NCBI RefSeq assembly: GCF_017406825.1
Contig: NZ_JAFQXT010000003.1
Coordinates: 1 to 64,000 of the forward strand
Direction: 5' to 3'
Source: Methanobrevibacter sp.
Lineage (GTDB): Archaea > Methanobacteriota > Methanobacteria > Methanobacteriales > Methanobacteriaceae
Length of the DNA: 64,000 nucleotides
Shown here: in pieces, positions 20,978 through 27,464 of the stretch
Layout: each line of letters begins with the position of its first letter
How positions within the stretch are numbered: the first letter of the stretch is position 1
Notes under the pieces: model-generated
Told to the model about the DNA's origin: nothing
The model's input: the letters and a program-made list of their open reading frames with translations, nothing else
The model's database searches: none
Made by a program: the position numbers and the translations under genes

Positions 20978-21322
20978 ATGAACGCAAAAATTAACTGGAG
21001 CGAAAAAGTCAAAGACTTAGACGAAACAATCAGAAAAGAAATTGGTATTGAAGGGGAAAACGAAGCCAAACATATCCTAATCAAAGTCCAAACAAAAGCA
21101 TCCGAGGCAATCGAACCTGCATTCATTGTTGGCGAAGATGAAACCTTCCTGGATTTGTTTGTATTATCGCCACAAGGACCAGGAATCACATCAACTGCCG
21201 TTTTAAAAGATAATATTCAAAGCGTAGGAGTAATCGGCGGAGTTTCAGCCGAAAAAATCGATCCATCAGAAATTTCTGATGAAACACCACTGCTCGATGA
21301 TGTAGCTGGATTATACCAATAG
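20978..21322 (+). CDS. Hypothetical protein, 114 residues
   Basis: Soluble protein beginning MNAKINWSEKVKDLDETIRKEIG, with a middle region FIVGEDETFLDLFVLSPQGPG and a glycine-rich segment QSVGVIGGVSAEKI. No family recognised. Start follows GAGAGGTAATTAT. It precedes the HsdS/HsdM-like pair by 77 bases in the same orientation, so co-transcription is possible; whether it takes part in that system is unknown. Confidence 0.65.
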   Translation: MNAKINWSEKVKDLDETIRKEIGIEGENEAKHILIKVQTKASEAIEPAFIVGEDETFLDLFVLSPQGPGITSTAVLKDNIQSVGVIGGVSAEKIDPSEISDETPLLDDVAGLYQ

Positions 21323-21398
21323 CTTAGTTTTGGCTCACCACCAAAACTAATGCTCATTCAACCACCATTCCCATTGTAAATTTCTTGAAGGGATAAAA

Positions 21399-21962
21399 AT
21401 GCAAAAAATAATACTGAATGATATAGCGGAAGTTATATCCGGACTCTCGTATAGGCGTTATTTAGATGACGATGGAGAAAAATTCAAAGTAATTGTACAA
21501 AGATCCATAAAAAGAGATGGAATACTTTCTGATTTTGAAGATGTAAAGTTAAACGATAACTTTAAAGACAGGTATTTCACTAAGAAAAACGACGTGCTGA
21601 TGAAAATGACATATCCTTATGACGTTGTTTGCGTCAAACAGGAAAACCTGATAATTAGCGATAGAATCGCAATAATAAGACTTGAAAAAGGTTATGACCC
21701 GGAATTCATTGCACATCTGCTGACAAATACGCACATTGAAAAACAACTCCATGAACTTGGAGGTAGCGGCAAGCTGCCTCACACATCCCTTAAGGAAATT
21801 AAACAACTGCAACTCACCATTCCGGATTTAGAAACACAGACCAAATACGGGGAACTTTTAAACACCATCAACGAAAAGATATTTGAAGACCAGCGCCAAG
21901 TTGAATATGATAGACACCTCAAGGAGGCAATACTGAACGATTTATGGGGTGACAGTCCATGA
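21399..21962 (+). CDS. HsdS-like half specificity protein
   Basis: A 187-residue protein resembling one target-recognition half of a type I restriction specificity subunit: N-terminal ILNDIAEVISGLSYRR, middle KKNDVLMKMTYPYDVVCV, then SGKLPHTSLKEIKQLQLTIPDLETQTK and a helical spacer (LLNTINEKIFEDQRQ). Full HsdS proteins have two such halves; half-size ones dimerise. It overlaps the following HsdM-like gene by four bases (ATGA), so the two products are made together. No HsdR gene is present in the window. Presumed DNA-sequence reader. Confidence 0.75.
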   Translation: MQKIILNDIAEVISGLSYRRYLDDDGEKFKVIVQRSIKRDGILSDFEDVKLNDNFKDRYFTKKNDVLMKMTYPYDVVCVKQENLIISDRIAIIRLEKGYDPEFIAHLLTNTHIEKQLHELGGSGKLPHTSLKEIKQLQLTIPDLETQTKYGELLNTINEKIFEDQRQVEYDRHLKEAILNDLWGDSP

Positions 21963-23632
21963 AAGATAAAAAACCGACAAACTACGCCATCCTAAAACAG
22001 TTGATGTCTAAATCAAGGAGATTGAAACTCCCTAGGGAAATCGACTACATTATCCTTTACACATTCCTGTACAAATACTGTTCAGATAACATAAAAGACT
22101 TTTTATCCCTGGAGCTGAAAGATAAGGAGCTGACCATTGATGAATCCTATAAAAACCCTGCTTATCAGGAGATAATAACTTTTGACGCATTAAAATTATA
22201 TGGATTCTATATTAAAAAGTCCGATGCGTTCATTGATGAAGTTGTCACCAACAATTACATGAAACCTGGATTTCTTCCGGATTTTCTAAAGATATTTCCG
22301 GAAAACGTATTATTCAGCAAGGAATACCACAATCTTAAATATTTCGATGACCTGTTCATGACTATCGACAATGAGATAGACACCTATGAATATGACGGTG
22401 AAGTTACACGGAATATCTGTGAAATCATATATCTGATCTCCCAATTCGATATCTTCGACTTGGATTTGGAGTTCAGCGACATATTTGATATAATTTCAGC
22501 ATCCAGACTAAGTCATGTCAATTCAAATCCTGATTATATCACACAGATACTGGCCAAATTAGTTTTAAGCGAAAAGGAAACAATTGAAAGTGCATATGAC
22601 CCGTTCATAAAAGATGGAAGCACAATTATGAAATTGAGGGATGAACTGGAATACAGTTTAACCTATTGCTATGGTAAGGATGTCAGCAAATTGAACTATC
22701 TTCATGCAATTGTCAGATTCTTCATCAACAACCTGTCATTCAATAATGTATTTTTAAGACAGGAAGATGCATTGGATTCAGTAGATATTAACGGAGCTTC
22801 TTTCGATGTGGTGCTGTCAAGAATTCCAATCGCCATTAAAAATTATTATTCATCAAATATTAACCAGAGCATGGAAATTTCAAAAAGAAGTAAACGCAGC
22901 GAACTTGAGGACATTTTGCTGAAAAACTTCGGCATTGATGAGGATTCATTCAAAATAGATGACGAGCTCAATAATGCTCTTGAAAATCTCGTTGACAAAA
23001 TCAGCATCGAAACTGATTTAAACATTGATTTTAAAGGTCAGTATGAGCCGCTTCGAGACAGCGAGTTTTTATTCCTTCTCAATTTAATAGATTCCCTTAA
23101 GGATGATGGAATAATGGCAATAAGCATCTCTGAAAATTTCTTGTTTAAAAATTCCCTTGAGATTCTCAGGAAATACCTGACCTACAAGAAAAATTTCATC
23201 GACACCATTATCCGAATCCCAAATGATATTAATCGCTCAAGACCGGAAGTCGTAATAGTATTCAGAAAAAATAAGGCCGATAAAGATATTCTGTTCATGG
23301 ACATGTCCGCAAGCTATGAAACACAAAAGAGCAGCGTGGCCTATCCCGGGTTATTCAGAAGAAACCTTATTCTGGATGATAAAACTATAGAAAAAATGCA
23401 GAGGGTATTCATTAACAGGGTATCATTGCCCAAATTCTCTAATTTAGTTTCAGTGGATGAAATCGAAGACAATAATTTCAATCTGTCTGTTTCCCGCTAT
23501 GTTGATACATTTGAAGGGGAATTTATTTCTCTTGATGAATTGGTAATTGAAAAACAGGATATAGATTCGAATATCAGAGATTTAAATAAGAAAATTGAAA
23601 AGATGATGGATGAATTAAATATTAGATTTTAA
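21959..23632 (+). CDS. HsdM-like protein with degenerate methyltransferase motifs
   Basis: A 557-residue relative of type I N6-adenine methyltransferases. Residues 1-190 are a helical domain like the HsdM N-terminus. The SAM-binding motif I (normally DPACGSGG) reads DPFIKDGS at 214-221, and the catalytic NPPF/Y motif reads SRIPI after FDVVL (282-291). Later HsdM blocks are kept (DGIMAISISENFLF; LRKYLTYKKNFIDTIIRIPND; PEVVIVFRK), and the C-terminus is a coiled coil (526-557). Methylation activity is therefore improbable. It probably forms a DNA-binding complex with the HsdS half upstream. Confidence 0.75.
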   Translation: MKDKKPTNYAILKQLMSKSRRLKLPREIDYIILYTFLYKYCSDNIKDFLSLELKDKELTIDESYKNPAYQEIITFDALKLYGFYIKKSDAFIDEVVTNNYMKPGFLPDFLKIFPENVLFSKEYHNLKYFDDLFMTIDNEIDTYEYDGEVTRNICEIIYLISQFDIFDLDLEFSDIFDIISASRLSHVNSNPDYITQILAKLVLSEKETIESAYDPFIKDGSTIMKLRDELEYSLTYCYGKDVSKLNYLHAIVRFFINNLSFNNVFLRQEDALDSVDINGASFDVVLSRIPIAIKNYYSSNINQSMEISKRSKRSELEDILLKNFGIDEDSFKIDDELNNALENLVDKISIETDLNIDFKGQYEPLRDSEFLFLLNLIDSLKDDGIMAISISENFLFKNSLEILRKYLTYKKNFIDTIIRIPNDINRSRPEVVIVFRKNKADKDILFMDMSASYETQKSSVAYPGLFRRNLILDDKTIEKMQRVFINRVSLPKFSNLVSVDEIEDNNFNLSVSRYVDTFEGEFISLDELVIEKQDIDSNIRDLNKKIEKMMDELNIRF

Positions 23633-26594: not shown

Positions 26595-27464
26595 TTAAAC
26601 ATAATCCTCAAAAATCCTTCCGATGCGACCGCCAAGTTCAACCGCATCTTTTACAGATCCTTTTTCTCTGTGTTCTTTAAGGATTTCTCCTTCTTTAGTT
26701 AGTAATATTGAATAAATATTAAATTCATCATTTTTCATGCGTGCTATTGCACCTATTGGCCATTGACAGCCAACGCCAAGTTCCTCTAACACTTTTTTTT
26801 CTGCAAAAACTTCCTGCATTGAAATGAAATCATTCAGTTTTGAAATCAAATCCTTCTTGTCGGAGTCTCGTCTTGTGATTATTGCCAATGCCCCCTGGCC
26901 TGCAGGTGGGGTGATATAATCCAGCGGAAATACGTTCTTAATGTATTTTGTCAGATTTAATCTTTTAAGGCCTGCCTGGGCCATGATGGTTGCATCCAAA
27001 TCACTGTCCAGCGCTTTTTGAATTCTGGTTTCGATGTTTCCTCTGATAGGTTTGAGTTCAAACTCTTTATTGTAATGATTGCAGAATGCTTCTCTTCTAA
27101 GACTGCTTGTTCCAAGTCTGGAACCCGGACCCAAATCGTCCCAGTCTTTTTTAGAAATCAGAACTTCATTTGGAGATTCACGTTTTGGAACAGCAACAAC
27201 TTCCAAATCTTCATCCAGTTCGGTAGGCAAATCTTTAAAGCTGTGCACGGTAAAGTCAACTTCCTCTTCCAAAAGGGCAATATCTAATTCCTTGGTAAAA
27301 AGGCCTTTTGAATCCATATTATATAATTGGGATGTGGTTATTTTATCTCCTTTTGTCTTGATAATTTCCACATCGATAGGTTCGCCAGTTATTTTAGATA
27401 AATCAGCGCAAACCTGTTTTGTTTGGGCTAGAGCTAATTGGCTTCCACGAGTTCCAACAATCAT
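26595..27464 (-). CDS. hemC: Porphobilinogen deaminase
   Basis: Hydroxymethylbilane synthase, 289 residues. It polymerises four porphobilinogen units, the step leading to sirohydrochlorin and on to F430, cobamides and siroheme. N-terminal VGTRGSQLALAQT, the catalytic-aspartate region FTVHSFKDLPTE, LGTSSLRREA and RGNIETRIQK are visible, and the dipyrromethane cofactor attaches at Cys233 (GVGCQWPIGA). GGAG lies before the ATG. The promoter has a 20-bp palindrome over its TATA element (27493-27512). The GATase-like downstream genes are co-oriented. Confidence 0.95.
   Translation of the reverse strand: MIVGTRGSQLALAQTKQVCADLSKITGEPIDVEIIKTKGDKITTSQLYNMDSKGLFTKELDIALLEEEVDFTVHSFKDLPTELDEDLEVVAVPKRESPNEVLISKKDWDDLGPGSRLGTSSLRREAFCNHYNKEFELKPIRGNIETRIQKALDSDLDATIMAQAGLKRLNLTKYIKNVFPLDYITPPAGQGALAIITRRDSDKKDLISKLNDFISMQEVFAEKKVLEELGVGCQWPIGAIARMKNDEFNIYSILLTKEGEILKEHREKGSVKDAVELGGRIGRIFEDYV

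Follow-up and report, generated by a model that had tools for sequence, protein, structure and literature searches.

Introduction

Among the described systems closest to the locus reported here are methyltransferases that combine an HsdM (M) with a half-size HsdS (S). In the 'Type 1 1/2' methyltransferases (M.AhdI, M.BsaBI and M.PshAI), there are likewise a separate M and an S with a single target recognition domain (TRD), with an expected composition of 2M+2S, and M.AhdI is such a 2M+2S enzyme (PMC3874165). Half-HsdS is also found, naturally or by engineering, in NgoAV, in EcoDXXI deletions and in the M+half-S enzyme of CC398-1, where it leads to a symmetric specificity (PMC3874165, PMC6158711), as would be expected for our locus. 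Half-S chains dimerise and so give palindromic specificity, and DNA is bound by the complex but by neither S nor M alone (PMC3874165, PMC6158711).

Here we analyse a gene pair of similar build in the window, by which we mean the whole stretch of 64,000 nucleotides studied from Methanobrevibacter sp. A sequence-only reading had proposed that a half-size S, bound to a dead methyltransferase and lacking a restriction subunit, would form a sequence-specific DNA-binding complex.

Results

Anatomy of the gene pair

The pair consists of a half-size HsdS (S, 187 aa; 21399..21962, + strand) followed by a catalytically degenerate HsdM homologue (M, 557 aa; 21959..23632, + strand). The two ORFs share the four bases ATGA, so the overlap and the S-before-M order are as they had been read. 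S shows a single Pfam Methylase_S match (E 2.7e-9, residues 4-159), that is, one TRD in 187 aa, which bears out its half size, and its orthologue is 60-90% identical in all of the 40 loci described below. In the AF2 model of S (pLDDT 75), which matches half-size Esub1 and HsdS structures in Foldseek, helices are found at residues 144-161 and 165-183. This C-terminal two-helix part (residues 144-183; 21828..21947, + strand) is the expected dimerisation zipper, a role deduced from homologous half-S subunits (PMC3874165, PMC6158711).

M matches Pfam N6_Mtase (E 1.1e-27), with the strongest stretch at residues 361-519 only. The hsdM models also match it, mainly in the C-terminal half, and so do the PDB HsdM structures 3lkd and 7bst, again most strongly in the C-terminal region. 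The profile search against HsdM families thus agrees with the claim that M has kept the late HsdM blocks. The conserved C-terminal region (GEYESL..SRYVDTFEGE..; 23039..23629, + strand), which holds the strongest Pfam/PDB match and the most invariant columns, is expected to be the part that binds S. The AF2 model of M, made from seven input sequences, has a pLDDT of 36.

Loss of the catalytic motifs

We have aligned the profile of 15 family members of M with that of 11 intact archaeal HsdMs by hhalign. The alignment spans 483 columns and nearly the whole chains (probability 100, E 2e-54). SAYDPFIKDGS of M is placed on SVYDPTCGSGS of the intact HsdMs (SAM motif I, YDPFIKDGST versus YDPTCGSGSL; 22595..22624, + strand), and FDVVLSRIPI on FEAIVANPPF (catalytic motif IV, SRIPI for (A/S)NPPF; 22817..22831, + strand), which confirms the earlier assignment of DPFIKDGS to motif I and of SRIPI to NPPF/Y. 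A third element, AGEFYTP, is also gone according to the alignment and the column tallies, and VNSNPDY now stands in its place (22517..22537, + strand). After motif IV follows a family-specific insertion (M residues about 299-356; 22853..23026, + strand), mostly unaligned in hhalign.

The same loss is seen throughout the orthologues. The GSG of motif I is absent in 40/40, and the position of the catalytic Asn is taken by K in 19 species, R in 18, E in two and H in one, residue 288 of the window's M being R. Intact SAM and NPPY motifs in close homologues, which would have made M a normal enzyme, were thus found in none of the 40.

Distribution and chromosomal place

Full-length M orthologues exist in 40 genomes of the genus including the window's own, whose M shares 38-83% identity with the others. 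None of these ORFs has an internal stop, and a half-S lies directly 5' of M in every case. Both genes are unbroken at the same chromosomal place in 40 of the 67 same-genus genomes. The two genes are co-inherited, and their fixed place is not close to R-M genes. The pair is absent from the other 27, most of which lie outside the carrier clade. In a tree of three markers and 62 genomes, all carriers included fall in one clade. Four genomes inside this clade (G036, G043, G052 and G073) lack the pair, with the flanking genes being neighbours on one contig in all four. Since four lineages within the clade do without it, the pair is not essential; and since there are 40 intact orthologous pairs, it is not due to chance. 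This survey of relatives upholds the half-S/degenerate M pair as real, though not as a local oddity, since it is a core gene pair of the whole clade. Beyond the genus, matches to M within the taxonomic family are HsdM-like proteins at E about 1e-30 or weaker, and a search of genome contigs with a single protein returned six close relatives and no others.

Where longer flanks were available, the pair is bordered by a gene for a 114-aa protein and by a 3' block, which comprises ARPP-1 and HIRAN (in most), a phosphoribosyltransferase, a Gfo/Idh oxidoreductase and the next gene (26595-27464). In addition, ORFs of about 625-655 aa recur beside the pair in many species (L045, L046, L047, L100, L101 and others), on the opposite strand between the conserved neighbours, and are possibly mobile elements.

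The 114-aa orphan gene (20978..21322, + strand) is directly 5' of S and matches nothing in Pfam or NCBIfam. It occurs in all 40 species with the pair and in 4 of the 27 other species of the genus, adjoins the pair in the examined loci, and may be a partner. Weaker relatives of it exist in genus g9. Part of the clade has another orphan of about 130 aa between this gene and S (L035:4918-5313; equivalents in L019-L021, L026, L030-L034 and L037-L040), which is absent in the window and likewise matches neither Pfam nor NCBIfam.

The spacer between the 114-aa gene and S contains an inverted repeat, TTAGTTTTGG-CTCACC-ACCAAAACTAA (21324..21350, not assigned to a strand). This repeat and the following TGCTCATTCAACCACCAT (together 21324-21370) are nearly invariant in one sub-clade, and the copy in the window is the sole exact one in the genome. 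Reading the S leader as an RNA structure was rejected for lack of covariation support, and an Rfam search of the leader gave nothing above the gathering score. No palindrome was found to mark the operon's own promoter across sub-clades. A comparison of bipartite palindromes between carrier and non-carrier loci yielded no usable target, the scan being confounded by orthologous loci.

Restriction genes and related pairs

The window's own genome (94% complete) contains neither an HSDR_N match nor a second HsdM, in line with the claim that no restriction subunit accompanies the pair. HSDR_N matches are missing from 16 of the 40 carrier genomes, some of these 16 being incomplete. By comparing match positions with pair positions, we have found no HSDR_N near the pair in the carrier genomes, so the relatives do not have the adjacent hsdR that would point to an ordinary type I system.

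Half-S genes together with an M of substituted motif IV also exist elsewhere, namely in G041 (L061, SVPPF), G078 and G091 (SIPPF), G125 (L161, ADLPL), G027 (L169, SQPPF), genus g8 (AKPPF) and genus g9 (SQIPF or SEIPF). In g12, L166 (SHPPF) has a half-S too, and its relative L167 has none among the matched ORFs. A 1181-aa protein is encoded near the g12 M-like gene (L166:7996-11541, L167:1355-4900), the L166 copy being a SNF2/DUF3670 helicase by Pfam. L070, L161 and L169 adjoin other type I genes, among which HSDR_N was confirmed for L161 and L169. The pair of L069, on a short contig, is that of L070. The absence of adjacent type I genes therefore holds for the carriers but not for these related pairs, whose place beside intact type I genes shows the likely origin of our pair. 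In genus g9, solitary pairs occupy a second fixed housekeeping place, with a polyprenyl synthetase and a DHH protein encoded nearby. In the FastTree tree of M, displayed without supports, the g8 pair groups within the intact HsdMs, and g9 and L169 together branch next to these, in both cases away from the window's clade. This suggests that catalytic loss in M occurred more than once, with long branches making the number of independent losses uncertain.

Half-S genes adjoin intact HsdM in many loci as well, and for this reason the half-S is probably older than the catalytic loss. Half-S is found near HsdM, intact where fully read, in L062-L067, L124, L129-L131, L133, L139, L145, L147 and L149, often with a full-length S besides; in this family, it is an additional gene of type I loci.

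The related pairs beside type I R-M genes (L069/L070, L161, L169), as well as the half-S genes 5' of intact HsdM, would also fit an accessory part in type I restriction, in which the pair protects sites or is a competitor for HsdR or DNA. We consider this unlikely, as 16 of the 40 carriers have no detected HsdR and the fixed locus of the pair is away from R-M genes. Less probable again is a role in defence or silencing through the binding of invading DNA. The family does descend from restriction, and Esub1, the half-size S with the best structural match, was co-crystallised with a protein called Prx, which we take to be the streptococcal phage protein paratox. However, defence genes differ from the pair, with its fixed target specificity, its one stable locus and its vertical inheritance, and a single pattern-based scan detected no relatives of the pair in viral contigs. 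Phage and plasmid searches returned distant HsdM matches.

Purifying selection and inverted conservation of S and M

Among the comparisons that allowed an estimate of dS, pairwise dN/dS is 0.03-0.11 in S and 0.04-0.12 in M; in many of them dS is close to saturation. The former catalytic core (M residues 196-300) shows few nonsynonymous changes too. In intact type I loci of the same family, M is 73.8% and S 32.2% identical, and S is the more conserved in 0/153 pairs. In the window's family the order is inverted, with 48.4% for M and 68.5% for S, and S exceeds M in 190/190 pairs (from a sample of 20 species). With a constant DNA target, one would expect such a reader that stays fixed while its inactive scaffold changes, and the unusual conservation of the reader subunit S strengthens the DNA-binding reading. 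Both the catalytic loss in M and the selection on the pair are well supported.

These results leave very little probability that M, with its unusual motifs, has remained an active methyltransferase. The fold family and the C-terminal half are well conserved, and motif IV is variable among amino-methyltransferases, but K, R, E or H holds the Asn position in 40/40, the GSG of motif I is missing and AGEF is gone. Nor is M an SPPY form, as the Ser before the Asn position corresponds to the -1 residue of the intact VSNPPY/VSNPPF enzymes (L163, L171). The m4C enzyme reading was rejected. As for a decaying remnant without function, the lost motifs and the four lineages missing the pair could be cited in its favour, yet 40 intact ORF pairs, a dN/dS far below 1 and an S more conserved than M made us reject it as scarcely credible.

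Discussion

Overall, the pair is in our view probably a relative of the 'Type 1 1/2' methyltransferases that has been domesticated and is catalytically dead. It would have M2S2 composition, recognise one interrupted palindrome of fixed sequence and act by occupying it. A dead M2S2 reader is expected by analogy with dimerising half-S subunits and with the 2M+2S of M.AhdI. Two half-S and two M chains would assemble as in M.AhdI or the engineered M+half-S enzymes, and the two identical TRDs would read one interrupted palindrome, of a sequence unchanged across the clade. M would bind no SAM productively and methylate nothing, serving as a clamp that enables S to hold DNA. The complex would then work through occupancy of its sites, most likely as a transcriptional regulator or a chromosome-binding protein. 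M may conceivably have some other function, such as contact with a partner protein or a ligand. The sequence-only reading was thus right on anatomy and is plausible on function.

More tentatively, methanogens of this family may repeatedly have turned pairs of type I methyltransferase and half-S into dead, DNA-binding complexes of fixed target that serve the chromosome as regulators, possibly an undescribed class among archaeal DNA-binding proteins. No published description of such a pair was found in a literature search that covered a minority of subscription journals and preprints. If our reading is true, the pair is a restriction-modification enzyme without its chemistry, whose DNA reader is under stronger constraint than in working systems. 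It provides, in gut methanogens, a candidate for a new type of complex with sequence-specific DNA binding, and one that can be tested directly.

Among known systems, the best structural match to S is Esub1 (PDB 8vsr, 8vsq), which has the half-size S fold (TM 0.71, 17% identity), is presumably streptococcal, and for which no paper was found in the literature search. MADS mad2/mad5 show weaker profile similarity to M and S in a PADLOC scan of these two proteins alone; MADS itself is a multi-gene defence system, and the neighbours of the pair were scanned with Pfam. With type I HsdM (EcoR124I M; PDB 3lkd, 7bst), M shares HsdM homology that is strongest C-terminally. Type I R-M differs from the pair in its two-TRD HsdS (S here is half-size, with one Methylase_S stretch), in an HsdM with SAM motif I and NPP(Y/F/W) (M is dead, with 0/40 orthologues intact), in its HsdR (none in the own genome nor in 16/40 carriers), in gene order (S-M here) and in a TRD that is variable, not fixed. 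NgoAV, the EcoDXXI deletions and the CC398-1 M+half-S are methylating enzymes, unlike the pair. The 'Type 1 1/2' enzymes share its separate M and single-TRD S genes, yet they are active modification enzymes of R-M systems, whereas no partner nuclease was found for the pair and its M, judged from sequence alone, would have no methyltransferase activity, as the catalytic motifs are absent. Because the defining features tested are not found in it, we place the pair in neither type I R-M nor the 'Type 1 1/2' methyltransferases, and it plausibly works like one of the latter without the chemistry.
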